From assembly GCF_024102715.1 (NCBI RefSeq), contig NZ_JAGFJM010000049.1, positions 1 through 54,743 of the forward strand: a DNA stretch of 54,743 bases. Direction: 5' to 3'. The number at the start of each line of letters is the position of its first letter. The stretch's first letter is position 1. The stretch is from Nitrosomonas communis. Lineage in GTDB: Bacteria > Pseudomonadota > Gammaproteobacteria > Burkholderiales > Nitrosomonadaceae. The translations under genes and the position numbers were made by a program. The notes under the pieces were generated by a model. It saw only the letters and a program-made list of their open reading frames with translations, had not been told where the DNA came from and did not search any database. Positions 10,874 through 27,821 of this stretch are shown here, piece after piece.

Positions 10874-11923
10874 ATGTCCAGAAAATCATTTGTTTTGACC
10901 ATGGCGCTACTGACTGCCGCAATCCCATGTTTCGCGCAGGCCGCGCGTGATTATGTCAGTATTGTTGGCTCCTCCACGGTTTATCCTTTTGCCACGGTCG
11001 TGGCTGAAACTTTCGGTAAGACCAGCCGATTTAAAACGCCAAAAATTGAATCCACAGGTTCTGGCGGCGGTTTCAAGCTTTTTTGTGGCGGGATAGGGGT
11101 TGCGCATCCTGATATTACCAATTCTTCCCGTGCCATCAAAAAGTCAGAGATCGACGCCTGTGCTGCCAACGGAGTTACAGATATCATCGAAGTGAAAATT
11201 GGCTATGACGGCATTGTCATTGCCAATGCCAAAAAAGCTGAGCAATTGCAGTTTTCGCGAAAAGACCTGTTTTTAGCGCTGGCCAAGAATGTTCCCGATC
11301 CCAAGGGTAGCGAAAAATTGGTGCCCAATCCCTTTAAGACCTGGAAAGAGGTCAACTCCGATTTGCCGAATACTGCCATTGAAGTGCTCGGCCCGCCACC
11401 CACCTCAGGCACCCGTGATGCTTTTGTCGAGCTTGCCATGGAAGGAGGTTGTAAAAAGTTTGATTGGATCGCAGCAAAAGAAAAAGAGGATGAAAAGCAG
11501 TACAAGTCAATTTGCCATGCAATTCGTGAAGATGGCGCTTATGTTGAGGCAGGTGAAAACGATAACCTGATTGTACAGAAGCTGGAAGCAAATCCAAATG
11601 CAGTAGGTATTTTTGGCTATAGCTTCCTGGATCAGAATACTGACAAGGTGCAGGGTCTAATGATTGACGGGGTTGCACCATCGTTTGAAGCGATTGCAGA
11701 TAATAGCTATCCCATTTCCCGCCCACTGTTTTTTTATGTGAAGAAAGCGCACGTCGGTATGATTCCAGGAATCAAGGAATACTTGCACGAGTTTGTCAGT
11801 GAAAAAGCCTGGGGCGAGGAGGGCTATCTGTCAGACAGAGGGTTGATTCCTATGCCAGTGGCTGAACGTACTGCCGTCGCTCAGGATGTTAAAACCCTAC
11901 GGGTAAATGTAAGCCGTCATTAA
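10874..11923 (+). CDS. pstS: Phosphate ABC transporter substrate-binding protein PstS
   Basis: A 349-residue periplasmic phosphate-binding protein. AAAGGAGGAAAG lies just before ATG 10874. A signal peptide (MSRKSFVLTMALLTAAIPCF, cleavage near AQA) precedes the mature start ARDYVSIVGSSTVYPF. Family phosphate-loop segments are GSSTVYPFA, STGSGGGFKLFC and GPPPTSGTRDAF. It resembles the long PstS class with PDITNSSRAIK. First gene of the pst operon, behind a Pho box; a stem-loop separates it from pstC, which commonly allows more PstS than membrane subunits. Confidence 0.95.
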   Translation: MSRKSFVLTMALLTAAIPCFAQAARDYVSIVGSSTVYPFATVVAETFGKTSRFKTPKIESTGSGGGFKLFCGGIGVAHPDITNSSRAIKKSEIDACAANGVTDIIEVKIGYDGIVIANAKKAEQLQFSRKDLFLALAKNVPDPKGSEKLVPNPFKTWKEVNSDLPNTAIEVLGPPPTSGTRDAFVELAMEGGCKKFDWIAAKEKEDEKQYKSICHAIREDGAYVEAGENDNLIVQKLEANPNAVGIFGYSFLDQNTDKVQGLMIDGVAPSFEAIADNSYPISRPLFFYVKKAHVGMIPGIKEYLHEFVSEKAWGEEGYLSDRGLIPMPVAERTAVAQDVKTLRVNVSRH

Positions 11924-11930
11924 CCGGTTG

Positions 11931-11966
11931 AAAAAGTGGCGCAGTGCAAGCCACACCGCCCTTTTT
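11931..11966 (+). terminator. Stem-loop between pstS and pstC
   Basis: AAAAAG-T-GGCG (11931-11941) can pair with CGCC-CTTTTT (11957-11966); an alternative inner stem is GTGGC (11936-11940) with GCCAC (11950-11954). It probably acts as a partial terminator or mRNA-stabilising hairpin. Confidence 0.55.
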
Positions 11967-11979
11967 GAGTTAAATTGTT

Positions 11980-13362
11980 ATGCATACATTCACCTTTGTT
12001 TTGATTTTACTAATGCTGATGGTGGCCAGTTTCTTCTTTGGCCGCCGGCGGGCAGTGACAGTTTCCAAGGGTGATGTTCGCTCCCTCAACTCCTTGCCCG
12101 GTTACTATGGCTACTACACTGCGCTGTGGTGCGGGATTCCGGCGCTGCTTATTTTTACTTTCTGGCAGTTTTCTGAATCGGCAGTGATCACCAATCTGGT
12201 CATTGCGGGCCTGCCGGAAGAAGTCACGTTACTGTCAAAACAGCAATTAAACCTTGTCATCAACGAAATTCGCAATCTGGTAAGTGACAATATTGTGGCA
12301 AGTACGATATCGCCAGAAATAGCAGCAGCAGCCGAGCGCTATCGTGAAATGCAGGCGATCAGCAAGATGGCATTATTTGCAGTCATGATGGCGCTTGGCG
12401 TGGGTGGCGCTACCTATGCATTATCCCGCATTCATCAGCAACATAAAGCACGCAACAAGGTTGAGAATACGATTCTGATTTTTCTGATAGCCTGTTCTAC
12501 CATCGCGATATTTACCACCTTGGGTATTGTGCTGTCAGTTTTATTTGAGGCGATACTTTTTTTCCAGGCGGTGCCTGTCACAGACTTTCTGTTTGGATTG
12601 GAGTGGAGTCCTCAAACCGCCATACGGCCCGGCCAGGTGGGCGCATCGGGTGCATTTGGCGCTGTCCCTTTGTTCACCGGCACCATGCTGGTATCAGCCA
12701 TTGCCATGGTAGTCGCGGTGCCCATTGGGCTGATGTCGGCTATCTATTTAGCTGAGTATGCCTCACCAGGCATGCGTGCCTTGAGTAAACCCATGCTTGA
12801 AGTGCTTGCAGGTATTCCCACGGTGGTATATGGATTTTTCGCAGCATTGACCGTTGCGCCCTTTTTCCGAGGATGGGGTGAGTCACTGGGGCTGGCTATT
12901 TCATCTGAAAGCGCATTGGCGGCAGGGGTCGTGATGGGAATCATGATTATTCCGTTTGTCTCGTCACTTTCTGATGATGTGATTTATGCGGTACCACAAT
13001 CATTGCGTGACGGCGCTTATAGTCTGGGGGCAACGCAATCTGAAACGATCAGAAAAGTCGTGATACCAGCAGCACTTCCTGGCATTGTGGCGGGCATTCT
13101 GCTGGCGGTGTCACGTGCTATTGGCGAGACCATGATTGTGGTGATGGCAGCAGGCCTGGCAGCGAATTTGACCGCTAATCCATTAGAGTCTGTTACCACA
13201 GTGACTGTCCAGATCGTCACTTTGCTGGTGGGCGACCAGGAGTTTGATAGTCCGAAAACGCTGGCGGCTTTTGCTTTAGGGCTGGTACTTTTTGTGGTAA
13301 CGCTGGTCCTCAATGTCATCGCATTATATGTCGTGAGAAAATATCGTGAGCAATATGAATGA
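11980..13362 (+). CDS. pstC: Phosphate ABC transporter permease PstC (long form)
   Basis: A 460-residue inner-membrane permease, longer than the about 320-residue E. coli PstC. The extra N-terminal part (residues 1 to about 175) holds a first helix, a helix near residue 45, a periplasmic stretch rich in Glu/Gln/Ala and a helix near 130. The permease core follows with TPFSFLFG-like DFLFGLEWSPQ, VAVPIGLMSAIYLAEYASP, EVLAGIPTVVYGFFA and the ABC-coupling loop SLGATQSETIRKVVIPAALP. The last 17 bases overlap pstA. It forms the channel with PstA. Confidence 0.93.
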   Translation: MHTFTFVLILLMLMVASFFFGRRRAVTVSKGDVRSLNSLPGYYGYYTALWCGIPALLIFTFWQFSESAVITNLVIAGLPEEVTLLSKQQLNLVINEIRNLVSDNIVASTISPEIAAAAERYREMQAISKMALFAVMMALGVGGATYALSRIHQQHKARNKVENTILIFLIACSTIAIFTTLGIVLSVLFEAILFFQAVPVTDFLFGLEWSPQTAIRPGQVGASGAFGAVPLFTGTMLVSAIAMVVAVPIGLMSAIYLAEYASPGMRALSKPMLEVLAGIPTVVYGFFAALTVAPFFRGWGESLGLAISSESALAAGVVMGIMIIPFVSSLSDDVIYAVPQSLRDGAYSLGATQSETIRKVVIPAALPGIVAGILLAVSRAIGETMIVVMAAGLAANLTANPLESVTTVTVQIVTLLVGDQEFDSPKTLAAFALGLVLFVVTLVLNVIALYVVRKYREQYE

Positions 13363-14653
13363 ATTAGTCCCGCCAAAACCGAAAACAATCGATCTGGTCA
13401 ACGCCAGCCTGGCTAAGCGGCGCGCATCTGAAAGGTTGTTCCGCGGCATCGGCCTGATATCCATCATGATGGCCCTGATGTTTCTTTTTATGCTGTTCTA
13501 CAGCATCGTGTCCAAAGGCTACACTGCTTTTCGGCAAACCCACATTCAACTGGAAGTCAATTTTGATCAGCAGCTGCTGGATCCGGCAGCAACACGCCAC
13601 CATGACGTGCTTTCCTCTGCTGACTATAGCAGTCTGGTCAAAGCAAGCTTGAGCAAGCTATTTCCTGATGTAACCAGTCGTAACGAAAAGCGTCAGCTTC
13701 ATGGTCTTGTCAGTGCGGGTGCTGCCTATCAGTTGCGGGATATGGTCATGGCGGACCCTGCCTTGCTTGGCCAAACCCTGCAGCTATGGGTACCGGCGGA
13801 TGATGACGTGGATATGCTGATTAAAGGGCATATTGATCGAGATGGGCCAGAGACCGAACGCCGCCTGCGTGATGTGCAGATTGCATGGCTTGATCAATTG
13901 GCAGCCCAGGAAAAACTGTCACTTAAGTTCAATATGTTATTTTTCGCCAATGGCGATTCACGCGAACCGGAGCTTGCTGGCATATGGGGCGCGTTGATGG
14001 GATCGATCTATACCTTGCTGGTAACTTTGCTGTTATCGTTTCCGATGGGTGTCGCCACTGCTGTCTATCTGGAAGAGTTTGCTCCCAAAAGCAAGTGGGT
14101 GGATTTGATCGAGGTTAATATCAACAATCTGGCTGCAGTGCCATCCATTATTTTTGGACTCCTTGGTCTGGCAGTATTTATCAACTTCATGAGTTTTCCG
14201 CGTTCGGCCCCGCTGGTTGGCGGATTGGTGCTTGCCTTTATGACATTGCCTACGATCATTATCGCCAGCCGTGGCGCCCTGAAGTCCGTGCCGCCTTCCA
14301 TACGGGAGGCGGCGCTCGGTGTGGGTGCATCAAAAATGCAAACAGTTTATTTTCATGTACTGCCGCTTGCTACTCCCGGCATGCTTACGGGTACGATCAT
14401 TGGTATGGCGCGTGCGCTCGGCGAGACAGCACCCTTGTTGATGATTGGCATGGTGGCTTTTATCGTTGATATTCCATCAGATATATTTGATCCTGCCACG
14501 GCGTTGCCGGTACAAATTTATTTGTGGGCAGATAGCCCGGAACGTGCGTTTGTCGAGCGTACCTCGGCAGCGATTATTGTGTTGCTAGGATTTCTTTTTG
14601 TCATGAATGCGCTGGCGATCATCCTGCGCAAGAAATTTGAACGGCGGTGGTAA
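13346..14653 (+). CDS. pstA: Phosphate ABC transporter permease PstA (long form)
   Basis: A 435-residue permease, again longer than E. coli PstA (about 296). A cytoplasmic N-terminus and first helix ([20 protein letters not shown]) are followed by a periplasmic insert of about 150 residues, then the core with [37 protein letters not shown] and the coupling loop [20 protein letters not shown]. The frame opens at GTG 13346, overlapping pstC by 17 bases; ATG 13355 is an equally possible start. Ends 22 bases before pstB. Confidence 0.92.
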
Positions 14654-14675
14654 ATTATTCAGGAAAGGATGGTTG

Positions 14676-15575
14676 ATGGCTAATACCGTTAATATGAGTC
14701 AATATAATGAGCAGGCCGAGCGTCGCAAACAAGAGCGCAGAAAACAAGGCAAAATGCGGCTGTCAACAGCTACAGTTACGCGTGACAATAGAGAAACGAT
14801 TGGAAATGTCACTGTTCCTGACTACCGGATACGCTGTACCGATATCAACGTGTTTTATGGCGACAAGCATGCTATCAGGAACATTACGCTCGACATTGGG
14901 CGCCATGAGATCATTGCCATGATTGGCCCCTCCGGCTGTGGAAAATCTACTTTCCTGCGTTGCTTGAATCGAATGAATGACACCATAGAAAATTGTCGTG
15001 TGACTGGCAAAATCATGATGGATAACCAGGATATCAATGACAAGTCAATTGATGTGGTGCCGTTGCGCGCCAAGGTGGGAATGGTGTTTCAGAAGCCCAA
15101 TCCTTTTCCGAAATCAGTGTATGAAAACATTGCTTTCGGGCCACGTATTCATGGTCTTGCCAAAGACAAAGTCGAGCTGGATGAAATCGTGGTGACAAGC
15201 CTGAAAAGAGCAGGACTTTGGGAAGAAGTTAAGGATCGGCTTGATCAGCCAGGAACAAGCCTGTCCGGCGGACAGCAGCAGCGTTTGTGTATCGCGCGCA
15301 CGATCGCAGTCAACCCCGAAGTGATTTTGATGGATGAGCCTTGCTCTGCGCTTGACCCCATCGCGACGACCAAGATCGAGGAGCTGATGGATCAACTGTG
15401 TGCCGATTATTCGATCGTGATCGTAACGCATTCCATGCAGCAGGCGGCGCGTGTATCGCATCGTACCGCGTATTTTCATCTTGGTGATTTAATCGAGGTC
15501 GGCGCTACCGAGCAGATTTTCACCAAGCCTGTGCATCAGCTGACTGAAGATTATATTACGGGCCGTTTTGGTTAA
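14676..15575 (+). CDS. pstB: Phosphate ABC transporter ATP-binding protein PstB
   Basis: A 299-residue ATPase powering phosphate import. I chose ATG 14676, after AGGAAAGGATGG, rather than the upstream open frame that overlaps pstA. About 45 extra polar residues precede the ABC domain. Walker A is GPSGCGKST, the PstB-typical RCLNRMND follows, the Q-loop is [18 protein letters not shown], the signature [13 protein letters not shown] and Walker [14 protein letters not shown], with the switch His in VTHSM. Fourth gene of the operon, followed by phoU 26 bases later. Confidence 0.95.
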
Positions 15576-15601
15576 ACCCATAAAGCAAGGAGGAAAAAAA
15601 T

Positions 15602-16303
15602 ATGTCAACTCGACTTGAGGGTCATACCTTCCGGCGGTTTGATGGCGAGTTATATCACCTTCACACCGAAATACTTCAAATGGCTGGACTTGTTTATGAG
15701 CAGGTGCAAATGGCGCTTGAATCTTTTCAACAACAGAAATTGGATAGCATTCGTGTGATAAATGAAAGAGAGGCGCAGGTAGATGCTTTGGAGAAAAGCA
15801 TCGATAGTGTCATCACTGAAGTATTGGCAAAACGTGGTCCAGTCGCCCGCGATCTGCGCACCATTATGGCATTTTCAAAAGCAGTCACCGATCTTGAACG
15901 TTTGGGTGATGAGGCCGCTAAAATAGCCTATATCGCTGCCACCATGTATAACAATGATGGCAATAATCCAAGTAATTACTTGCTGCGCGATGTCGGCATA
16001 ATGGGCAAGCTTGCCTGTGTCTTGCTAAAAGAAGCGATTGAAATTCTGGATATGCTTGATCTGGAGAGAGCTGAAAAATTGTTAAATAGCCATGATGATA
16101 TTGAAGAAGAGTTCCAGGCAGGTTTACGCAGATTGGCTACTTATGTGCTTGAAGACGCACGAAACGTTGGCCACATCATTAATGTTGTGCTGGCCATGAA
16201 ATCACTAGTGCGTATTGGTGAACACGCGCGCAACCTGGTGGAATATGTCGTGTATATGGTTAGCGGCGAGGATATTCGGCATACTGAGAGTGTGCAGGCC
16301 TGA
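15602..16303 (+). CDS. phoU: Phosphate-specific transport regulator PhoU
   Basis: A 233-residue all-helical protein that links PstSCAB to Pho signalling and represses the regulon when phosphate is ample. AAGGAGG lies just before ATG 15602. Two PhoU repeats are visible with the acidic metal-site signatures KAVTDLERLGDEAAKIA (about residues 97-113) and SLVRIGEHARNLVEYVVYM near the C-terminus. Last gene of the pst operon. The sensor pair phoR/phoB is not in the window. Confidence 0.94.
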   Translation: MSTRLEGHTFRRFDGELYHLHTEILQMAGLVYEQVQMALESFQQQKLDSIRVINEREAQVDALEKSIDSVITEVLAKRGPVARDLRTIMAFSKAVTDLERLGDEAAKIAYIAATMYNNDGNNPSNYLLRDVGIMGKLACVLLKEAIEILDMLDLERAEKLLNSHDDIEEEFQAGLRRLATYVLEDARNVGHIINVVLAMKSLVRIGEHARNLVEYVVYMVSGEDIRHTESVQA

Positions 16304-16403: not shown

Positions 16404-17710
16404 TTAGGATGAAACATTCAGGCTAGGATGACGGGAAATCTGGACACGTTGTATCAGAAAGAGCAAGGACATCGATATTGAATAACCGCAAGCGGCACCG
16501 ACCAGACCCATGTGATAACTCAATACTGTGGTGAAGATCAGGTTCAGGATCATCGCACACATTGTTGTTACGAAAACATTATGCGTCCTTTTCATAAACT
16601 GCAGATAATAGGGTGCATCTGAGAACATGGCGCTGATTGAGGCGCCTGCAGCAAGGATACAAAGTGCAAAGTAACCATCAGGAAAATGGGGACCGAACCA
16701 TGCAAGAACCTCTTGTCCGAAAACTGCGATACTACAGAAAAACAAGCCTGCCAGGCCCCCGACGACGACCAGTCGATGCTGCATGAGATGATGCATTGAT
16801 GCAGCATCCCTGCGCTCCATAAACAGTGACATCAAGGGTAGATACAATCGGTTGACTGTGTTTGCAAATAATACAATAAGTGTCCCGGTCTGGGCCACAA
16901 CGGCGTAAATTCCTACTACCGCTTCAGATGGATAAAGGAATTTGAGAAGGATTACACCGGAGCTCGCCATCATGGTGAGCATCCAGCTGTTCATCATCAG
17001 TGGGGCGGAGTGACTGATCCATTCCCGCTTGAGATATAAAGGTTGGGCCAGCCATACCCCCTGCGGTGTAGAGATGCGCATGAACCGGTAGATTGCAATC
17101 AAACCCCCTATCCAGCGACTCCATAGACCAGGCTCACGCTGACGGCTGTCATCGGCAACTCGAACGCATAGAGCAGAATCACGAAAACGAAGAAACAGGC
17201 TGGAACTTGGAAGCGATAGATAACGACGGCTTCGATCGGGGCGTTGTTGGCTATGACAATCTCAATCAGGAACAGAACGATTACTATAAATGGCAGGAAA
17301 GAGACCATCACTACGATCGGGATATGACTTTCGCCAAGTCGATTCAAAAATACTAATTCGAGTATAACGTCCAGCACCACGACCAACAGAACACTGAAGA
17401 TAAATATCACGGTCAGTGAAAACCGCAAGAAACCACGCGTGTGAGACCAATCGCCATGATCGCGATAGACCGGAATGCAATGTAACGCATACTTCTCTAG
17501 ACCGAGTGTAGCAACTGTCGCCAAGACGGTGACTACGGATATCGCCACGCTGTAATCGTCGAAATCGGGGACGGTAAGATTACGAGCCAGGACGATGTTG
17601 GTCACGTAAAACCACAGGAAGTTTGCAAGGGCCAAAGCACAGAGTAGAAGCGCCCGGAAATAGTCTGCTCTTGAGAGCGCTTGAACTTCGATATATTGTC
17701 GTTTCGTCAT
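16404..17710 (-). pseudogene. Wzx/oligosaccharide flippase-like membrane protein, split by a frameshift
   Basis: Two adjacent minus-strand frames make one protein. The first (17710 to 17108, 200 residues, ATG start MTKRQYIEVQALSRADYF) ends in VYGVAG-stop; the second (from about 17117 to 16404) continues with GGLIAIYRFMRISTP. The total of 1307 bases is one short of a multiple of three, and the break lies by a GGGGG run at 17104-17108, so a single-base loss is the simplest reading. The combined product of about 435 residues has a dozen hydrophobic helices and the pattern of polysaccharide biosynthesis exporters (for example NIVLARNLTVPDFDDYSVAI near the start). No glycosyltransferases are nearby, so it is an orphan. 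Sequencing error remains possible. Confidence 0.7.
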
Positions 17711-18032
17711 TGGCTCGAGTGAAATAGAATTAGCAGCGATAGGCCCTTTTCATCAGAATTGAAAGGTTTCACTACTGTTGGACGTCTCTGAGGTCGACTT
17801 AGCAAGAGAATCATTCATGGCCAGTCTCGTTTAGGCTTCGTCGAAGCATTATTGGCGTGGTTTACCTTGTATTAATTGGTTAAGCGAGCTTTATCCGCTT
17901 TACAAAAAAATCGGGTAGAAACAAGCATCAAGCATCGATCGGCGTATTTTACTAATCAGGCAGAAGGCTTGGCCTGTAGCGCCTAAGAGCTGACTGTATT
18001 CCGCCCCATCTCGCCTTTTAAGCTAAGGAGTT
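17711..18032. other. Intergenic region between porin and flippase-like gene
   Basis: About 320 bases. I see no gene, RNA or repeat here. Both neighbours read leftwards, so it holds the 3' region of the porin transcript and the promoter of the flippase remnant. No clear terminator hairpin was recognised. Confidence 0.4.
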
Positions 18033-19478
18033 TTACCAAGTGACCTGTCCGCGGAGTAAAACGCCTTGTGGTTCAGCTCCTGCAAATGGACCACCTTTGA
18101 CGTTCAGAACGTGTACGTAATTGGCCATGAATTTGAAATTGGAATGAGGATACCAATTGACGCCTACTGTGATATTCTCCTCCTTGCCACCTTCAACGTC
18201 CTTATTGTTTAGATCTAAACCACTGTAACGAGCCGCGATTTCCCAAGCCCCGATGCCTCCCAGGCCCACGATGCTTTTTGGTTTAGGATTTTTGAGAGTG
18301 CCAAATTTGAAATTATAGATTCGAGGCTCGCCTGTCACAATCCAGCTTCCCTGGACATACCAGCCGTCGAACCCGGGGTTCGTCAGACCCTTGCGCTCAA
18401 CATCGGCGTACATATATTCGCCCTGCAAGGAAACTGGACCATAGATGATAGCGGTTTCCACACCAATACGGGTTACGCTGTCGACATTGGTCAATAAGCC
18501 CGTATCAACTAGCCGATTGGTGCCCGGAGTCATTTCAGGCCGTTCACGGAAGCGAACCGGATTATCGGGCGAGAGCCAAGAGCCGGCAAAGCCAAAATGC
18601 ACGATTTTATCCTCGGTGTGGATAGGCGATAGGGTGCCCCGGCCGGTAAAAACAACGGGATCATCCCTTTCCAGCTCCACGCCACCAAACTCTTCACCGG
18701 AAGCGTTTCTCCCGTAGAAACCTGTGTGGAGCGTCCATAGGTCATGACCGTGGGTAATTAGGCCGAAACCGAGGCGGCGGGCGTCAGGTGGGCTGAAAGC
18801 TCGGCTGGGCAAGGCTCGTTCGATAAAGGTAATATCGTTGGAGCTGTTGAAACTTTCCAATCCATAGGTTTCCTTGAAATGGCCCAAAATGGCCGAGGCT
18901 GGCCAGACTTCCTCATTGTTATAAGCCAGCCATGCATCCCGCAAGCCTGCGAGGACGTCACCATTGCCAGCAAAGTCATATTGTAGCTTCAATTGCCAGC
19001 GTTTCCACAAAGTGGCGAGGATATCCAAGCGGGCGCGCCTGATGCTGGCGTTATCGTGAAAGTCGGTAGATTCTCCGCTGTCTGCCCGGTCGTCGTCGTA
19101 AATTCCTCCTTGCGTATGAAGACGCCCTCCTAGGCCCCATACAAAGTTACCATCCCGTGACTTGAATTCGAGTTTGCCTTTCGTATTGATTACAGGAAAG
19201 TCCTTAGTGACTGCTTCGACTTCCTTCTTCACTTCCTGCTTGGTGACCGCCTCGATTTCCTTTTTTACCTCTTGCTTGATTTCTTCCGGTGTTGCAGAAG
19301 GAATCTCGTTAGCTTCGTCGACAGGCTTGAGAGTCCCGAGTTTAACGCGGCCAGGAGCTGGTTGTCCGTAGAGCTGGTCGGTTTTGGGGTCGATGTAAAT
19401 ATCGAGCGCGAAGGCTGGAAAGACGGCGAATCCAGTGAGAATGAACACCAGTATGCTAGTAAGATAGGTGATTTTCAT
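18033..19478 (-). CDS. Phosphate-selective porin (OprP/OprO family)
   Basis: A 481-residue outer-membrane channel. A signal peptide (KITYLTSILVFILTGFAVFP, cleavage near AFA) is followed by a periplasmic linker with a short tandem repeat, KQEVKKEIEAVTK then KQEVKKEVEAVTK (about residues 68-92), probably a coiled coil for trimerisation. The barrel follows with family segments WGLGGRLHTQGGIYDDD, ASIRRARLDILATLWKRWQL, WLAYNNEEVWPASAILGHFK and alternating beta strands ending in an aromatic residue (VTW). A candidate Pho box 111 bases upstream and the nearby pst operon support phosphate or polyphosphate uptake. Ion selectivity is inferred from family and context. Confidence 0.88.
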   Translation of the reverse strand: MKITYLTSILVFILTGFAVFPAFALDIYIDPKTDQLYGQPAPGRVKLGTLKPVDEANEIPSATPEEIKQEVKKEIEAVTKQEVKKEVEAVTKDFPVINTKGKLEFKSRDGNFVWGLGGRLHTQGGIYDDDRADSGESTDFHDNASIRRARLDILATLWKRWQLKLQYDFAGNGDVLAGLRDAWLAYNNEEVWPASAILGHFKETYGLESFNSSNDITFIERALPSRAFSPPDARRLGFGLITHGHDLWTLHTGFYGRNASGEEFGGVELERDDPVVFTGRGTLSPIHTEDKIVHFGFAGSWLSPDNPVRFRERPEMTPGTNRLVDTGLLTNVDSVTRIGVETAIIYGPVSLQGEYMYADVERKGLTNPGFDGWYVQGSWIVTGEPRIYNFKFGTLKNPKPKSIVGLGGIGAWEIAARYSGLDLNNKDVEGGKEENITVGVNWYPHSNFKFMANYVHVLNVKGGPFAGAEPQGVLLRGQVTW

Positions 19479-19959: not shown

Positions 19960-20769
19960 ATGACCGAAATCCTGCAACTCATACCAGAGGATGCGGAGGC
20001 ACTACGCATTGCCCATCAGCATCTGGAGCATCCCAGCCTGGCGGCACGCCTGACTAACTTTGTCGGTCTGCCGATTGAGCGCAGTCTCAAGCTGCTGCCC
20101 AAGGCTTGGTACGAGAATCTGCGACAGGGCATGAACCGGACTCTGCTGACAGCGCTGGAATGGGCTATCAGTCCACTTGACTTGCAGCCTGGCATTTCTG
20201 CCCAGGAAGGTTACCATAAACTTTTGGCGGCTACTTCGGGAGCGCTTGGCGGTTTCTTCGGCCTTCCCGCAGTTATTGCCGAGTTGCCTGTGTCGACCAC
20301 GATTACCTTGCGGGCTATTGCCGATATCGCCCGCAGCGAGGGTGAAGACCTGGGCGATCTACGCACTCGTCTGGCCTGCCTGGAAGTTCTGGCGCTAGGA
20401 GGTCGTACTGATGAGGATGATGCAGCAGAAACCGGCTACTATGGTGTCCGCATCGTCCTGGCTCTGCATTTGTCCAGAGTACCGGAAAAGGTGCTGGAAA
20501 AGAGTATTCTCAAACCATCTCACCCGGCCATGGTGGAGCTGATCGCTGCTATCGCTGCCCGTTTGGGTATCGTGGTTACTGAAAAAACTGCAGTTCAGAT
20601 GGTGCCCATACTGGGCGCCTTGAGCGGAGCGCTGGTGAATGTGATCTTCATTCAGCATTTCCAGGATATTGCCCGTGCCCACTTCACGGTGCGCCGCTTG
20701 GAGCGCAGCTATGGCTCCGAGTTGATCCGGCGTGAATACGATAATTACAGCCGGGCGGAGCACGTCTGA
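19960..20769 (+). CDS. EcsC-family protein
   Basis: A 269-residue protein. The central region LAATSGALGGFFGLPAVIAELPVSTTITLRAIADIARSEG (given here in two joined parts, about residues 90-130) has the Gly-rich hydrophobic core and the LP-x-T-x-R-I-I motif typical of EcsC proteins, and a second hydrophobic stretch (VPILGALSGALVNVIF) near residue 215 completes the family pattern. The molecular role of EcsC is not established; in Bacillus it sits beside the EcsAB transporter. Here it is a lone gene, 195 bases upstream of the P-type ATPase on the same strand; a link between them is possible but not shown. Ribosome site is weak. Confidence 0.8.
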   Translation: MTEILQLIPEDAEALRIAHQHLEHPSLAARLTNFVGLPIERSLKLLPKAWYENLRQGMNRTLLTALEWAISPLDLQPGISAQEGYHKLLAATSGALGGFFGLPAVIAELPVSTTITLRAIADIARSEGEDLGDLRTRLACLEVLALGGRTDEDDAAETGYYGVRIVLALHLSRVPEKVLEKSILKPSHPAMVELIAAIAARLGIVVTEKTAVQMVPILGALSGALVNVIFIQHFQDIARAHFTVRRLERSYGSELIRREYDNYSRAEHV

Positions 20770-20964: not shown

Positions 20965-23900
20965 ATGATGGTCAGCAATACTGAATCCAGACTTACGCCG
21001 CAGGTCTCGCCTGGTGCGGATAAAAAAATTATTAAAATCAGGATAAAACCTGTGCACACCTGCGTGCCGGGCAGAGCGCGCTATCATGTAAATATCTTGC
21101 AGCGTGTAGCTGCGCTGGCACAGCACCTGGAGCAGCAATTGGGTGCAATCTCGGGTGTTGTTATGGTTAGAGTAAATAGCCTGACAGGATCGGTGGTAAT
21201 TGTTTATGGCAAAGACATCGCGCTGGATAAACTGCCTTTTTTGTTGCTAGAAGCCTGCAAACAAGCACTTAAAAGTCTTCGTTATACTGGCTCGCTAACT
21301 AAATCTGATGCAGCAGCAGTATCAACCAGTTTCACAGCTTATTTCGATTCGCTGTGGAAAAGAACGCAAAACTTATTTGCTGCGCCGCTGCATACCCCCG
21401 TAAGCCCAAATGCACCTCAAGATAACACCGATTGGCACATTCTTGAGGTAAGCCGTATTTTAGAAAAACTTCAAGTAGATACGCGCCAAGGCTTGGATAA
21501 ACAGGCAGTGCAGCGCATGCTGCAACAGTATGGCCTGAATCAATTGCCGGAAATTGCCCAGCGCTCACCGCTTAGCATGTTTCTCAACCAGTTGTTCACG
21601 TTACCGGTAGGACTACTCGCGGCCTCTGCGTTAGTCTCGCTGGCAACAGGTGGGATATTGGACGCAGGCATTATTGTGGGCGTGGTGATGATTAATGCGA
21701 GTATTGGTTTCTTCACCGAAATGCAGGCGGAAAAAATTATTAGCTCATTGACAAAAATTACCCCGCGGCATGCACAGGTAATACGCGATGGCGGCGAACT
21801 GCAATCGATACCGCATGCGCATGTGACTGTGGGTGATGTGCTGGTGTTGCAGCCGGGTGATTTTGTTGCTGCGGATGCGCGTGTGATTAAAACCAGTCAG
21901 CTCACCGTGGATGAATCGGCATTGACCGGTGAAAGCATGCCAGTGTCGAAAAATACGTCACCCATTGCCAAACAGGACACGCCACTCGCTGACCGGCGCA
22001 ATATGGTGTATATGGGTACCATGATAACCGGCGGCAATGGCGTGGGCATTGTCATCGCGACTGGTGTTAACACGCAGATTGGGCAAATTCAAAGTCTCGT
22101 TGGCGAAGCGCATTCACCTGAAACTCCCATGCAGCAGGAACTTGATCATATTGGCACCCAATTAGCGCTCACGAGCGGTGCGATTTGTTTGGGTGTATTT
22201 GCACTTGGTATGTTGCGTGGCTATGGTTTATTGCAAATGCTCAAGAGTTCAATTTCACTGGCAGTAGCAGCAGTGCCGGAAGGGTTGCCAGCAGTGGCCA
22301 CGACCACGCTTGCTCTCGGTATCCGCAAGATGCGCAAATATAACGTGGCAGTCCGCCATCTTGACGCAGTGGAAACGCTCGGTTCGGTGCAAGTATTTTG
22401 TCTGGATAAAACCGGCACTTTAACTTTGAACTGTATGACTGCTGTTACAGCTTATGTGGGTGGCAAGCACTATCTTGTGTCCGGCGAGCAATTACTCGTA
22501 GGCGATCAACCCATAGCCGGATTTTCCGATGACAGTTATCGGCGCTTTTTAGAGATTATCAGCCTGTGCAATGAATCAGTGCAACAGAATAGCGGCCAGC
22601 AGACTCACATGAATGGCACGCCTACAGAGAACGCCTTGCTGGAGCTTGCCAGATTCAGTGGTTTGGATATTGATGCGCTGCGGCAGCAATATCCCCACTA
22701 TAAAATCAAGTATCGCGCGGAAAACCGGCCATACATGTGCACTTTTCACCGTTTGCCGCGAAAGCGGCATTTGATTGCCGTGAAAGGGAGTCCGCAAGAA
22801 GTGCTAACGTTATGTGATTTTTACCAGGATCAAGGTGGCATACATCCGATTGACGATGCTTTTCGTGCCTCGGTGAGCAACATCAATAATCAAATGGCAG
22901 GGGATGCGCTGCGCGTGCTGGCTGTAGCTTACGCCGAGAAACCAATGAAAGATGAAGAGGCACCTGTGCATTTGACCTGGCTTGGTTTGGTGGGCATGAC
23001 TGATCCTTTACGTACCGGCATGCCCGATTTGATGCGCTTGTTCCACCGCGCTGGCATTCATACCGTCATGATCACCGGAGATCAATCCAGTACCGCCTAT
23101 GCAATTGGTAAGCAATTGAATTTAAGCAACGGCAAGCCGCTGCAAATTCTTGATTCCACCCGATTGGAAAAACTCGATCAGAAAATATTGAGTGGCGTGA
23201 TTCAGGGTGTGCATGTGTTTGCCCGTGTCAGCCCGGCCAATAAACTGCAAATTGTGCAAGCCATCCAGAGGAGTGGCAAGATTGTTGCGATGACAGGGGA
23301 TGGCATTAACGATGGTCCCGCGCTAAAGGCAGCCAATATCGGGGTGGCAATGGGTGGCGCTAGTTCCGATGTGGCACGCTCAGTATCGGATGTTGTGCTG
23401 GAAGACGATAACTTGCATACCATGGTGCTCGCTGTCGAGCATGGGCGCGCTATTTATAACAATATCCGTAAATCGATTCACTATCTGATCTCGACTAACA
23501 TGTCCGAAATCGAAGTGATGCTAGCCGGCATTGCGGTGGGGGCGGGCGAAGTGTTAACGCCGATGCAGCTTCTGTGGATCAATCTTATTACTGATATCTT
23601 TCCGGGACTTGCTTTATCCATGGAAGCACCAGTAGCAGACTTAATGCAGCAACCGCCACGTGATCCGCAAGAGAAAATCATCCGGCGCGACGATTTAATA
23701 CGAATGTCACGGGAATCGGCCATTATCACCATGGGGTCTATGGCAGCATACGGTTATGGATTTTTACGGTACGGGATTGGCCCGCAATCCAACACCATTC
23801 TGTTTAATTCGCTGACGCTTGCGCAATTGTTGCATTCAATTACCTGTCGTTCGGAAACCCATTCGATCTTTAATCAAGGCGCATTGCCGCGTAATCCTTA

Positions 23901-24159
23901 TTTGAATTATGCTATTGCAGGGTCTGGTCTGCTACAAGTTCTGGCCATGCTTGTACCTGGCTTGCGCAACGGTCTCGGTGCAGTGCCGTTAAACATACTC
24001 GATTTGCTGGTCGTTGCAGGCGGCGCGACGGTACCCATGCTGATCAATGACAGCGCCAAACATCTCATCAAGGCTAAAATGGACGTTACCAATGACGAAA
24101 GTGATGCAAATACATCAACTACAGATGTTTCTCAAACAATGAAGGAGGCGGCGGCATGA
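20965..24159 (+). CDS. P-type cation ATPase (P2A/Ca2+-type core) with N-terminal HMA-like domain
   Basis: A 1064-residue membrane pump. Residues about 24-95 form an HMA-like domain without CxxC, with PGRARYHV and LTGSVVIVYGK. The pump core follows: LTGES in the actuator domain, PEGLPAV in M4 (Glu439), phosphorylated Asp481 in DKTGTLT and hinge GDGINDGPALKAANIGVAMG (Asp783). The membrane residues that bind Ca2+ in SERCA appear conserved: ISTNMSE in M5 (Asn845, Glu848) and WINLITD in M6 (Asn873, Thr876, Asp877), so Ca2+, Mn2+ or a similar hard cation is more likely than Cu or Zn. The C-terminal tail is polar. The stop overlaps the start of the metK-like gene by 4 bases, so they are translationally coupled. 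The combination of a P2A core and HMA-like domain is unusual. Confidence 0.92.
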   Translation: MMVSNTESRLTPQVSPGADKKIIKIRIKPVHTCVPGRARYHVNILQRVAALAQHLEQQLGAISGVVMVRVNSLTGSVVIVYGKDIALDKLPFLLLEACKQALKSLRYTGSLTKSDAAAVSTSFTAYFDSLWKRTQNLFAAPLHTPVSPNAPQDNTDWHILEVSRILEKLQVDTRQGLDKQAVQRMLQQYGLNQLPEIAQRSPLSMFLNQLFTLPVGLLAASALVSLATGGILDAGIIVGVVMINASIGFFTEMQAEKIISSLTKITPRHAQVIRDGGELQSIPHAHVTVGDVLVLQPGDFVAADARVIKTSQLTVDESALTGESMPVSKNTSPIAKQDTPLADRRNMVYMGTMITGGNGVGIVIATGVNTQIGQIQSLVGEAHSPETPMQQELDHIGTQLALTSGAICLGVFALGMLRGYGLLQMLKSSISLAVAAVPEGLPAVATTTLALGIRKMRKYNVAVRHLDAVETLGSVQVFCLDKTGTLTLNCMTAVTAYVGGKHYLVSGEQLLVGDQPIAGFSDDSYRRFLEIISLCNESVQQNSGQQTHMNGTPTENALLELARFSGLDIDALRQQYPHYKIKYRAENRPYMCTFHRLPRKRHLIAVKGSPQEVLTLCDFYQDQGGIHPIDDAFRASVSNINNQMAGDALRVLAVAYAEKPMKDEEAPVHLTWLGLVGMTDPLRTGMPDLMRLFHRAGIHTVMITGDQSSTAYAIGKQLNLSNGKPLQILDSTRLEKLDQKILSGVIQGVHVFARVSPANKLQIVQAIQRSGKIVAMTGDGINDGPALKAANIGVAMGGASSDVARSVSDVVLEDDNLHTMVLAVEHGRAIYNNIRKSIHYLISTNMSEIEVMLAGIAVGAGEVLTPMQLLWINLITDIFPGLALSMEAPVADLMQQPPRDPQEKIIRRDDLIRMSRESAIITMGSMAAYGYGFLRYGIGPQSNTILFNSLTLAQLLHSITCRSETHSIFNQGALPRNPYLNYAIAGSGLLQVLAMLVPGLRNGLGAVPLNILDLLVVAGGATVPMLINDSAKHLIKAKMDVTNDESDANTSTTDVSQTMKEAAA

Positions 24160-25343
24160 CGGCAAACTTTATATTTACTTCCGCCTCAGTGACCGCCGGG
24201 CATCCGGACAAGCTGTGTGATCAAATCAGCGATGCCATTGTTGATCACTTCCTGCAACAAGATCCTTACTCGCGGATTAACGCGGAGTGTGCGGTGGCAA
24301 GTGGTGTGGTATTTATCGCAGCGCGGTTTGCATCGCATGCAGTAGTCGATATTCCTGAAGTGACGCGTTATGTAATTGAAAATGTGGGTTACAACCAGCC
24401 TGATTTTAATGCTAAGGATTGCACCATACTGACCAATTTCACTGAATTGCCGCCAGAGGAATATGTCACGGCCGATGAAACACAAATGAGCGATGCGGAA
24501 CTGGACAATGTTACTGCAGAAAATCATGCAACAGTGTTCGGCTATGCCTGTAAGCAAACGCCGGCCATGTTACCTATGCCAATTTGGCTGGCACACCGGT
24601 TCGCGCGGCAATTAACGCAGGCGCGTGAAAGTGAACTGATATCCGGTTTGCTGCCTGATGGAATGTCGGAGGTTGCGATTGAATACAGAGATCACAATCC
24701 AGAACGCATTCACAGCATGGTGCTGGTCGCCAGTCATAATGAGGGTCACAGCAATAAAGCCAAAGATTTAAATGCTGCCTTGATCAAATATGTGGTTGAG
24801 CCAGTGGTAGAACAACAAGGTATCAGGATTGATAAGGACACCAATATTTACATTAATCCGCAAGGTCCTTTCTTCGGCGGTGGGCCTAAAGTGCATGCAG
24901 GACTTACGGGCAGGAAAGTGGCTGTTGATGGTTACGGTCAATATTGCCGTATGGGCAGTGCCGCGCTTAGCGGCAAAGATCCGTTGCGTATCGACCGCAC
25001 GGGCAATTATATCGCCCGTTATGCTGCAAAAAATGTCGTTGCAGCAGGTTTGGCAGAAGAGTGTGAAGTGCTGGTGAGTTACTGCATCGGCCAGGCGAAA
25101 CCGGTGACAGTTCAAATCAATACCTTTGGTACTGGCAATATTTCCGATCATGATATTGCAACGCGTTTACTGGATGTGATTGATTTCCGGCCGGGAGCAG
25201 TGATTAAGCAGTTCAATTTGCGAACTTTGCCTGCTAATAGAGATGGTTTTTACCGCAGGCTGGCAGTATTTGGCCATGTAGGCAGAGATGATATTGAGTT
25301 GCCTTGGGAGAAGACAGACTTAATAAAACTGTTAACCGGCTAA
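24156..25343 (+). CDS. Divergent S-adenosylmethionine synthetase (MetK) paralogue
   Basis: A 395-residue protein with the three-domain MetK fold. Conserved: GHPDKLCDQISDAI (residues 15-28), FGYA, LTGRKVAVDGYG, LSGKDPLRIDRT, AKNVVAAGLAEECEVLVSYCIGQA and GHVGRDDIELPWEKTD at the C-terminus. Departures from housekeeping MetK, compared from memory with the E. coli enzyme: the GAGDQG loop before FGYA is replaced by TAENHAT, the Glu in the first SES segment is Ala (TSASV), the methionine-side CET is CAV, and GGPMGDCGLTGRK is GGPKVHAGLTGRK. This is unlikely to be the cell's ordinary SAM synthase; altered substrate or regulatory function is possible. It is coupled to the P-type ATPase by a 4-base overlap, an odd partnership for MetK. 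Confidence 0.85.
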   Translation: MTANFIFTSASVTAGHPDKLCDQISDAIVDHFLQQDPYSRINAECAVASGVVFIAARFASHAVVDIPEVTRYVIENVGYNQPDFNAKDCTILTNFTELPPEEYVTADETQMSDAELDNVTAENHATVFGYACKQTPAMLPMPIWLAHRFARQLTQARESELISGLLPDGMSEVAIEYRDHNPERIHSMVLVASHNEGHSNKAKDLNAALIKYVVEPVVEQQGIRIDKDTNIYINPQGPFFGGGPKVHAGLTGRKVAVDGYGQYCRMGSAALSGKDPLRIDRTGNYIARYAAKNVVAAGLAEECEVLVSYCIGQAKPVTVQINTFGTGNISDHDIATRLLDVIDFRPGAVIKQFNLRTLPANRDGFYRRLAVFGHVGRDDIELPWEKTDLIKLLTG

Positions 25344-25344
25344 G

Positions 25345-25845
25345 TTATGGTTTTTTGGGTCTTAACAATTGGAAGGCATACCAAAACAAGTTGACCGCAT
25401 TGCCCAATACCGCACCTTGCGTGAGTTGCCGCGTGGCAAACATGACGAAGCTGATAAATAGCACTGAACGTAAGTCGAGAGAACCATGACTGAATTCCCG
25501 TAAAGTGGAATCAAATGATGCAAGCGAGCGGGAGGCTTTTTGTGCAGCCGTTGGCTGCTTGGCTGTGGTAAATATCGCCCCAGATTTTTCAGTCAAGTTG
25601 TCGGTGGATTCAAACTGAAGGAAGGGATGATTTTTGATGCGTTCAATCAGAACGTCTTGTTTAATGTCATCATATAACAACAACACACTGCCGGTTAGTA
25701 TATTCGCGGTAACTTGCTTCACGCCTGCAAAGCCGCTGCAATCAATCTGCAGTGCTTCAAAAAAAGATTGGTCGCGGCGTTTCGCGGGTACTTTAAAACG
25801 AATTCTTCCCGGCGTGATGTGGGTGATTTGCGCGGGTAGTTTCAT
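25345..25845 (-). CDS. HMA-like domain protein with C-terminal membrane segment
   Basis: A 166-residue protein. Residues 1-80 form an HMA-like ferredoxin fold without metal-binding CxxC: ITHITPGRIRFKVP, then ILTGSVLLLYDD. The same signature occurs in the ATPase N-terminus and in the 96-residue protein nearby. The C-terminal part after a polar linker (SLDLRSVLFISFVMFATRQL then GAVLGNAVNLFWYAFQLL) is hydrophobic and likely membrane-associated. It ends 2 bases beyond the metK-like stop on the opposite strand and starts 4 bases after the DUF5132 gene, so it is the last gene of a three-gene minus-strand operon. Confidence 0.78.
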   Translation of the reverse strand: MKLPAQITHITPGRIRFKVPAKRRDQSFFEALQIDCSGFAGVKQVTANILTGSVLLLYDDIKQDVLIERIKNHPFLQFESTDNLTEKSGAIFTTAKQPTAAQKASRSLASFDSTLREFSHGSLDLRSVLFISFVMFATRQLTQGAVLGNAVNLFWYAFQLLRPKKP

Positions 25846-25849
25846 AAAG

Positions 25850-26191
25850 CTAAGAGGAAGGATGCACCGTTTGTTCCGGATCTGCTGCAGATACTTCTAC
25901 GACATCTTCAATAATCTCCTCTGCGGCTACTGTTGCGGCTGCAGCTCCGGCACGTTCTTCATCAATTTCAGCGCGGGCTTCTGCCACCAGATCTTCTACC
26001 ACTTCTCCCAATTCAGCAACCGTCTCGCGGCCCTTATTTAGAAAAAGTATGCCTGATTTGATTGCTGCGCGCGCAAGAGGTCTCGCAGCTTGCGCAACTG
26101 CGGGCAGTATCACAGGCGCTAGAATGGCTGCCGCTATGCCGATTGCAAAGCCTTTGCCAGTATTACTTTTAAAAAAATCTTCAACTGACAT
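25850..26191 (-). CDS. DUF5132 small membrane protein
   Basis: A 113-residue protein starting at ATG 26191 after TGAGGT. The N-terminal hydrophobic stretch GFAIGIAAAILAPVILPAVA (residues 14-33) is one membrane helix, followed by ARPLARAAIKSGILFLNKGR and an acidic cytoplasmic-looking region with many Glu and Ala, ending in an acidic tail. I recognise this as DUF5132-like. The architecture (one helix, short amphipathic region, acidic tail) resembles mycobacterial PacL/DUF1490 proteins, which act as scaffolds for P-type ATPases; that comparison is by layout and is an inference. Middle gene of the three-gene operon facing the ATPase. Confidence 0.78.
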   Translation of the reverse strand: MSVEDFFKSNTGKGFAIGIAAAILAPVILPAVAQAARPLARAAIKSGILFLNKGRETVAELGEVVEDLVAEARAEIDEERAGAAAATVAAEEIIEDVVEVSAADPEQTVHPSS

Positions 26192-26277
26192 AATTACCTC
26201 AGATTAAAAAGTGCGCAGATCAAATTTCCTTATTTGGTTAAACACTGCGCGGATTTAAAAATATCAATGCATTATAC

Positions 26278-26568
26278 TTATTCAGCCAAATATGGCCGCA
26301 ATTTTTCCGTATCTAAATCTGGAAATAATTTCTTTAAAGTGACTAACAAGTGGTCTGAATTTTTTCCATCCTTAATCGCATACTTGTCATATTTGACTAA
26401 TACGCTGCCGGTCAGCATACTGATTTCCACTTCAGTGATACATAGCACCTTCGACAATTCAATTTCTACTTTCTTGGCAAAAGCCTCGTTATTTTTTATT
26501 TTGTCAACTTTTAGACGCACGCGTCCTGGAAAGAAATGTATGATTTTGATGCCTGGAAAGCTGAGCAT
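26278..26568 (-). CDS. Small stand-alone HMA-like domain protein
   Basis: A 96-residue soluble protein made only of the HMA-like domain: IIHFFPGRVRLKVDKIKNN, LCITEVEISMLTGSVLVKYD and a C-terminal amphipathic helix. No Cys pair is present, so classical Cu/Zn binding is not expected; the domain may instead dock to the ATPase. AAAGGATC precedes ATG 26568. First gene of the leftward operon with DUF5132 and the 166-residue HMA-like protein. Confidence 0.75.
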   Translation of the reverse strand: MLSFPGIKIIHFFPGRVRLKVDKIKNNEAFAKKVEIELSKVLCITEVEISMLTGSVLVKYDKYAIKDGKNSDHLLVTLKKLFPDLDTEKLRPYLAE

Positions 26569-26810: not shown

Positions 26811-27821
26811 CTAGAAAATGAGCACGTTTACCACCAGGAAATACACTATCAGGCTTAAAAGATCCTGGATAATCGTCGCAAGTGGACCACTTCCGTAGGC
26901 AGGATCAGTGCCTAATCGCTGCAGCAGCCACGGCAGGAGCATCCCGATCGTCGATGCTATCGACGATGCGATCACTAATGATAACGAGACAGCTATTGCC
27001 AAATTTATATCAGCAAAAAACACCCATACGAAAGGAAAAGTTAGCAAACCTAATATCATGCCGATAATGATGCCGGTACGTGATTCCCCCACTACTAAAT
27101 GATGCAGATCGGCATGAGACAGGGATAGGCCGCGCACTGCCACAGCTTCGCTTTGTGTTCCTATCGCATCGGCAATATATACCAGACCTGGTACGAAAAA
27201 GGCGATCACAACGTTTCGGGCAAGCTCCGCTTCGAATGACGAAACCAGCACTGCTGATAGCATCGAGCCAAACAAACCGACGATCAGCCATGGTAAACGA
27301 TGGCGCACGCGCCGTAGCGGCGGCAGTTCGAGGGCTTCACGGGCGACATCGGATTCGCGTCCGATACCAGCCAGGCGGTGCAAATCTTCGATATGTTCGC
27401 GCCGCAGGATATGCATCAGCGCATTGGAAGGGACAGTACCCAATAAAAAGTGATGGTGATCGACGATAGGCACTGCGTTATGATCATGATGCAAAGCGAT
27501 TGACGCCACCCGTTCTTGATCGACATCTGGATACACAAACGGCAGATTAGTGTGCATGATATCGCCAATTTGTGCCTCGGGTGCCGCCGCGAATAACTCA
27601 GAAATCGGGATGACACCCACTAACTTGCCCACCGGATCAATTACACAGATTAATTCAATGTTTTCGTAGGTGTGGTTAGACAGGCTTGCACGCGTAGCAG
27701 CGGTGGTGTCAGTTGGCAGCGCACGTGGCACTGATGCAACCAGATAGTGCCCGGCAGTTTCAAAATGCTGACGAATTGTTGGAGGTTTGTAGCGGGTCGA
27801 TTCAGTTTTGCGCTTTATCAT
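26811..27821 (-). CDS. MgtE-type Mg2+ transporter lacking the N domain
   Basis: A 336-residue membrane protein. Residues about 20-150 hold two CBS domains (IELICVIDPVGKLVGVIPISE; HNAVPIVDHHHFLLGTVP). From residue 175 the MgtE channel domain follows with five hydrophobic helices, including WLIVGLFGSMLSAVLVSSFE, FVPGLVYIADAIGTQSEAVAVR (the conserved GTQ region, split here by helix) and a final FLVVNVLIF. The helical N domain that normally senses cytosolic Mg2+ in MgtE is absent, so gating must differ. It reads in the same direction as the HMA-like/DUF5132 genes, 242 bases upstream of them, and may belong to the same cation-handling region. Confidence 0.82.
   Translation of the reverse strand: MIKRKTESTRYKPPTIRQHFETAGHYLVASVPRALPTDTTAATRASLSNHTYENIELICVIDPVGKLVGVIPISELFAAAPEAQIGDIMHTNLPFVYPDVDQERVASIALHHDHNAVPIVDHHHFLLGTVPSNALMHILRREHIEDLHRLAGIGRESDVAREALELPPLRRVRHRLPWLIVGLFGSMLSAVLVSSFEAELARNVVIAFFVPGLVYIADAIGTQSEAVAVRGLSLSHADLHHLVVGESRTGIIIGMILGLLTFPFVWVFFADINLAIAVSLSLVIASSIASTIGMLLPWLLQRLGTDPAYGSGPLATIIQDLLSLIVYFLVVNVLIF

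Follow-up and report, generated by a model that had tools for sequence, protein, structure and literature searches.

Co-occurring genes for a P2A-type cation pump, a divergent MetK-like protein, DUF5132 and HMA_2 proteins in Nitrosomonas communis and other bacteria

Why should the gene for an ion pump overlap the gene for a relative of the S-adenosylmethionine (SAM) synthetase MetK? The question is raised by positions 20965–26568 of the window, the whole 54,743-nucleotide stretch of Nitrosomonas communis DNA analysed here. Five genes lie in this interval, all confirmed where the first-pass annotation, made from the sequence alone, had placed them. On the plus strand, a cation ATPase of 1064 residues (20965–24159) carries an N-terminal HMA_2 domain with a PGRxR motif, together with the Pfam domains E1-E2_ATPase and Cation_ATPase_N/C; its assignment to the P2A type agrees with Pfam and NCBIfam searches. 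As had been claimed, the pump gene overlaps (by 4 bp) that of a 395-residue MetK-like protein (24156–25343, plus strand), which belongs to a divergent subfamily. One base separates the stop of the metK-like gene from the nearest gene of the opposite, converging strand. This gene encodes HMAa, an HMA_2 protein of 166 residues with C-terminal helices (25345–25845; PF19991, E 3.9e-18), and is accompanied on the minus strand by genes for a DUF5132 protein of 113 residues with one hydrophobic segment and an Ala/Glu-rich tail (25850–26191; PF17195, E 6.9e-12) and for HMAb, a short HMA_2 protein of 96 residues (26278–26568; PF19991, E 7.5e-15). The description of these three genes as a tight set holds for HMAa and DUF5132, which are 4 bp apart, but less well for DUF5132 and HMAb, which are separated by 86 bp. 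The HMA-like signature attributed to three of the five proteins is recovered as PF19991 matches in HMAa, HMAb and the pump (E 9.7e-11). Compared with two other Nitrosomonas genomes, the five genes show ratios of nonsynonymous to synonymous substitution rates of 0.06–0.17, indicative of purifying selection, and the value for the MetK-like gene (0.06–0.07) is the lowest among the seven genes measured.

In the genomes searched, the association of these genes is real, old and nearly obligate, and the pairing of pump with MetK-like protein is close to certain. The pump gene adjoins the MetK-like gene in all 30 genomes that carry the latter. Spacing between the two is 11 bp or less in 17 of the 19 loci measured and 60–63 bp in the other two, with MetK-like start codons assigned from alignment. 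DUF5132 is found in 29 of the 30 genomes, 25 of which have it at the same locus; in G365, G466 and G356 it is on a different contig and contig ends are near, so that the genes there may or may not be linked. Co-occurrence of pump, MetK-like protein and DUF5132 in other genomes, the lack of which had been named beforehand as a possible refutation, proved nearly perfect. A joint function of the five genes is supported by this co-occurrence, from which we infer it.

Within the Nitrosomonadaceae, the MetK-like subfamily is present in 16 of 125 genomes searched: five in the window's genus, the window included (85–100% identity), and 11 in a second genus (55–57%). The window protein shares 91% and 87% identity with its counterparts in Nitrosomonas sp. 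Nm33 and Nm34, respectively. In each of the 16 carriers, the MetK-like gene directly follows the pump gene and DUF5132 is encoded at the locus; at one locus (L035) no HMA_2 gene lies within the initial 4.2 kb, and one appears further out. Across the class, profile A1, which was built solely from Nitrosomonadaceae MetK-like proteins and contains none of the class hits outside that family, picked up the MetK-like gene in 12 of 369 genomes, which represent 12 different families. The HMA_2-P2A pump occurs in the same 12 genomes by profile A5. Members score at least 1501 bits, inflated by their inclusion in the profile. The best non-member reaches 953 bits, and its match begins beyond the HMA_2 domain, at profile position 117. 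Scoring covered the top two candidates of each class genome, which means that a pump ranked lower may have escaped. DUF5132 (PF17195) was likewise detected in 12 class genomes, comprising 11 of the 12 MetK-like carriers and one of the 357 others. With the 369 genomes treated as independent of shared ancestry and transfer, and the 12 positives drawn from 12 families, Fisher tests place the linkage well outside chance expectation, at p ~4e-19 for MetK-like with DUF5132 and p ~9e-23 for MetK-like with pump. In the one non-carrier with DUF5132 (G287), a DUF5132 fragment lies at a contig end by HMA_2 and EcsC genes, and the only MetK is canonical. The Pfam models miss some members: G780 is negative by PF17195 and has DUF5132 by profile A3 (84 bits), and some distant pumps and HMA_2 proteins, such as the pumps of L121, L158 and L153, fall below the PF19991 cut-off.

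Among 249 genomes of the phylum, the window's own included, the window and G503 reach at least 545 bits for the MetK-like protein and the remainder score 426 or less; in G503 the pump, MetK-like, HMA_2 and DUF5132 genes are all together. Two of 151 Chloroflexota genomes also carry the MetK-like gene, both with DUF5132, HMA_2, pump and MetK-like genes on one strand. No MetK-like protein was detected in 159 genomes from the phylum of the Aminicenantes genome, a set that had no positive control. Sequence identities of MetK-like proteins and pumps are correlated over the 12 loci common to A2 and A5 (Mantel r 0.49, a value equalled or exceeded in 97 of 9999 permutations). Across loci, HMAb, the short HMA_2 gene on the outer side, is less constant than the other genes.

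The MetK-like protein had been recognised as a paralogue of MetK, and it is indeed 39% identical to the canonical MetK encoded on another contig of the same genome. A tree that combines 24 MetK-like proteins with 19 other MetK proteins groups all 24 into one clade with support 100/100. Residues are given below in E. coli numbering. The positions that we take to be the ATP/Mg-triphosphate residues of MetK are largely retained: His14, Asp16, Glu42, Arg244, Lys245 and Lys265 in 24 of 24 MetK-like proteins and Asp271 in 23. The positions that we take to line the methionine side of the pocket are replaced. Glu55 is arginine in 22 proteins and histidine or lysine in the other two, Asp238 is histidine in all 24, Asp118 is lost in all 24 (asparagine in 17), and Gln98 is kept in a single protein; furthermore, Lys269 is arginine in 23. 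In the 16 canonical MetK proteins compared, Glu55, Gln98, Asp118 and Asp238 are all kept. The turning of two acidic positions into basic ones suggests an anionic ligand, and the pocket has probably been re-specified for such a ligand other than methionine. The predicted structure of the MetK-like protein has a predicted local distance difference test score (pLDDT) below 50 at residues 135–140 and 248–273, and for this reason it carries none of the ligand reasoning. No paper on these MetK residues turned up in the literature searched; to our knowledge, enzymes of the MetK family have been described solely as SAM synthetases.

The pump most resembles the Ca2+/Mn2+ ATPases of the P2A type (SPCA/PMR1 and the bacterial LMCA1), with which it shares the core domains and the PEGL motif. 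Its best NCBIfam model is the PMR1-type TIGR01522, at 623.2 bits and thus below the 798.3 cut-off, and its nearest solved chains are those of SPCA1. Residues Glu439, Asn845, Glu848, Asn873 and Asp877, at ligand positions of transmembrane helices 4–6 (TM4–TM6), are invariant in 18 of 18 pumps. These positions presumably resemble those of SERCA, whose site labels we assume here, and they resemble SPCA1 at TM4 and TM6, the TM6 Asn and Asp aligning with it. In contrast, Asn845 and Glu848 in TM5 align with Ser and Ala of SPCA1. The N-terminal HMA_2 domain is a further difference from the SPCA/PMR1 and LMCA1 pumps; 18 of 18 pumps have an HMA_2-like region that contains GRxR and lacks CxxC. Ca2+ or Mn2+ appears to be the likeliest cargo.

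The free HMA_2 proteins share this character. An RxR loop is found in all 25 free HMAa proteins (exact PGRxR in 17), and CxxC in none of the 25 within the first 110 residues. Because the loop is basic and of GRxR type and CxxC is absent, the HMA_2 domains, in the pump and free, probably serve in docking or in the sensing of lipids or anions, and not in delivering metal. The HMAa model (pLDDT 85, predicted template modelling score 0.48) shows an HMA-like fold and, C-terminal to it, three helices. Its first Foldseek matches are to the ATP7B HMA domain (probability 1.00, E 3.9e-3, template modelling score over the query 0.27); no match reaches E 0.001, and RNA polymerase L and LuxS, which are not HMA proteins, also rank highly. 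The CoBaHMA domain may be of a related kind, with an HMA-like fold, conserved basic residues and no CxxC in common; the partners found here (MetK-like, DUF5132 and EcsC) set the present proteins apart.

DUF5132 recalls a known pump scaffold. Two reports (PMC9374683, PMC13043812) describe PacL1, a DUF1490 protein, as having a transmembrane domain with conserved glycines and Glu/Ala repeats and as scaffolding CtpC and other pumps, and propose that DUF6110 proteins are PacL-like in phyla outside Actinobacteria. DUF5132 is similarly a small membrane protein encoded with a P-type ATPase: in an alignment of 29 proteins, 27 have GxxG or GxxxG within the hydrophobic segment or ahead of it, and Ala plus Glu make up 28–53% of the tail. 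An NCBIfam scan of DUF5132 returned chance-level matches only. The locus differs from the PacL platforms in having a P2A pump instead of a P1B-ATPase, extra HMA_2 proteins and a MetK-like partner.

Taken together, it is proposed, at roughly even confidence, that the locus encodes a conserved, scaffolded divalent-cation pump system with a partner enzyme that derives from SAM synthetase and no longer uses methionine. The P2A ATPase would export a divalent cation from the cytosol, with Ca2+ and Mn2+ as the most likely candidates. By analogy with the PacL proteins that scaffold mycobacterial P1B pumps, DUF5132 and HMAa would probably hold and regulate it. The MetK-like protein would be translated together with the pump and might contact it directly; judged by its retained residues, it probably still binds Mg-ATP and could carry out the triphosphate half of MetK chemistry, and its product or signal would set pump activity.

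Several observations weigh against this proposal. The links among these proteins rest on genes and sequences, not on experiment. One genome (G320) has pump and MetK-like genes and no detected DUF5132. Within the MetK-like clade, Asp271 is glutamate in G503, and Lys165 is variable, being kept in 15 of 24 proteins; moreover, the window protein passes the TIGR01034 metK equivalog cut-off (357.1 vs 309.4 bits). For the scaffold, DUF1490 matches only two of the 29 DUF5132 proteins, weakly (best E 0.012), YtxH matches three and does so better (best E 0.002), and a His-rich end such as PacL proteins have (at least three His in the last 12 residues) is found in none of the 29. The likeness of DUF5132 to PacL is therefore one of build, with kinship not established. 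Finally, in the Chloroflexota, DUF5132 mostly occurs without the MetK-like gene, which is present in only one of 10 PF17195-positive genomes.

These Chloroflexota loci may nevertheless preserve an older arrangement. PF17195 matches 10 of the 151 genomes, four over the Pfam cut-off and six below it (G822 among these). Of the nine PF17195 loci that lack the MetK-like gene, some of them cut by contig ends, seven contain a free HMA_2-like protein and five (L151, L153, L155, L156 and L159) have a P-type ATPase of ~690–750 residues nearby, a further parallel with PacL1 and CtpC. In the four short ATPases scanned, Cation_ATPase_N/C domains were absent and HMA_2 was present at E 0.01 or better in three (L151, L155 and L153, not L156), over cut-off in L151 only. 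Although a CPC motif occurs in just one of the five, they are probably of the heavy-metal type. DUF5132, HMA_2 and a P-type ATPase may thus form the older core, which the MetK-like protein would have joined on the P2A branch. In one Chloroflexota genome (L160, 1559–7268), a DUF5132-HMA_2 pair is followed ~1.6 kb later by matches to phosphate uptake components (PstB, PhoU and a Pst permease).

The genes probably specify a previously undescribed pump system that has a partner enzyme of its own. DUF5132, PF17195 and PF19991 are not mentioned in the literature searched, most subscription papers lying outside its scope, and the term CoBaHMA was not found there either. Nothing related emerged for metK with cation ATPases and nitrosifiers in the accessible text of that literature; one study of intracellular carbonate formers refers, in the text searched, to P-type Ca2+ transporters and not to this gene set. 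A MetK-like clade whose pocket is rewritten and which was encountered only next to a single kind of ion pump points to new chemistry or to a novel way of regulating P-type ATPases, and the poorly understood DUF5132, HMA_2 and EcsC families gain a shared context. If DUF5132 is a scaffold, then P2A pumps, too, would have scaffolding of the PacL kind.

What the pump serves may be asked of its neighbours. The system reaches past 20965–26568 to genes for an EcsC family protein (19960–20769, plus strand; PF12787, E 1.6e-27), an MgtE-type divalent cation channel (26811–27821, minus strand; PF01769, E 1.3e-22) and, in several lineages, the phosphate uptake operon PstSCAB-PhoU, identified by Pfam in the window at 10874–16303 on the plus strand. 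The MetK-like gene occurs in 13 Pseudomonadota families, and in seven of them EcsC is encoded at the pump or DUF5132 locus. MgtE lies near the system in four of the 13 (f1, f28, f128 and f114, the last in short pieces only), and so do Pst-PhoU genes (f1, f114, f122 and, with PstB and PhoU only, f117), the latter count being drawn from loci of unequal length, some on short contigs. In G010, Pst-PhoU, EcsC, pump and MetK-like genes are all on one strand. In another Nitrosomonas locus (L087), PhoU and EcsC are ~200 bp apart, from which it appears that window positions 16404–19478, between PhoU and EcsC, may be an insertion; this interval holds two minus-strand open reading frames (one Polysacc_synt-like) and a phosphate-selective porin (PF07396).

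These neighbours raise the tentative possibility, somewhat unlikely on present evidence, that the system serves phosphate physiology, balancing or storing divalent cations with phosphate as polyphosphate or calcium phosphate, and not metal detoxification. It is consistent with the Pst-PhoU genes in four families, f1 being represented by the five Nitrosomonas genomes, with the Chloroflexota pair described above and with MgtE and the porin in the window. However, Pst genes are missing from all 11 genomes of the second Nitrosomonadaceae genus and from the loci of the other nine families, some of them short contigs, and no Pho-box-like site lies near these genes, the window having two weak sites against 5.6 expected. 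A tie to phosphate is plausible. A more specific and decidedly doubtful extension of the pump-and-partner proposal would be a new class of ion-pump system, in which the MetK-like protein serves the P2A pump as a dedicated enzyme that uses ATP. In place of methionine, an anionic acceptor such as an organic anion or phosphate would attack ATP, tripolyphosphate would be released, and cation pumping would thereby be linked to phosphate status, on a membrane platform of DUF5132 and HMA_2 proteins.

The remaining alternatives concern the MetK-like protein itself. One of them, unlikely though not remote, is that the protein has lost catalysis and acts as an ATP/Mg sensor subunit, binding to the pump and gating it. 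The invariable pairing with the pump, mostly through overlapping genes, would suit such a subunit, as would a nucleotide site kept and a methionine site lost. Yet the replacing residues are themselves conserved (Arg at Glu55, His at Asp238, Arg at Lys269), which suggests a re-specified pocket and not decay; the near-complete retention of His14, Asp16 and Asp271 also speaks against a dead enzyme.

It is distinctly improbable that the MetK-like protein is an ordinary second SAM synthetase isozyme, co-expressed with the pump since SAM is needed under the same stress. The three S-AdoMet_synt domains are all present by Pfam, the ATP/Mg-triphosphate residues are those of canonical MetK and, as noted, the TIGR01034 cut-off is passed. 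Against an isozyme stand the basic residues at Glu55 and Asp238 and the loss of Asp118 in every MetK-like protein, together with the canonical metK that all 16 Nitrosomonadaceae carriers additionally possess. An open frame of 1367 residues in G296 hinted at an ATPase-MetK fusion, which was rejected: pump and MetK are in different frames and overlap by 4 bp.

Two further candidates were set aside. For anti-phage defence, none of the five proteins has a PADLOC match at E 0.001; the EcsC protein of the window does match PDC-S29, a candidate anti-phage model (E 6.6e-11), probably as no more than a member of the EcsC family. For a plasmid-borne cassette, 72,556 plasmid records gave no match to DUF5132, one weak match to HMA_2 and MetK matches in 167 records, all below 60% identity (best 42.5% among the 15 of 167 matches listed).

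That genes of unrelated function merely hitchhike together as a travelling cassette is most improbable: it would fit that the genes occur patchily in many families from two phyla and lie near one another in 25 of 30 genomes, but gene order and strand vary among lineages and, in the sole truly unlinked genome (G260, a single contig), MetK-like and pump genes at 2.13 Mb still co-occur with an HMA_2-DUF5132-EcsC cluster at 3.87 Mb, a separation of 1.7 Mb that argues against hitchhiking. In the same genome (L076, 10938–13007), a second, shorter P-type ATPase gene overlaps the 3′ end of the MetK-like gene.

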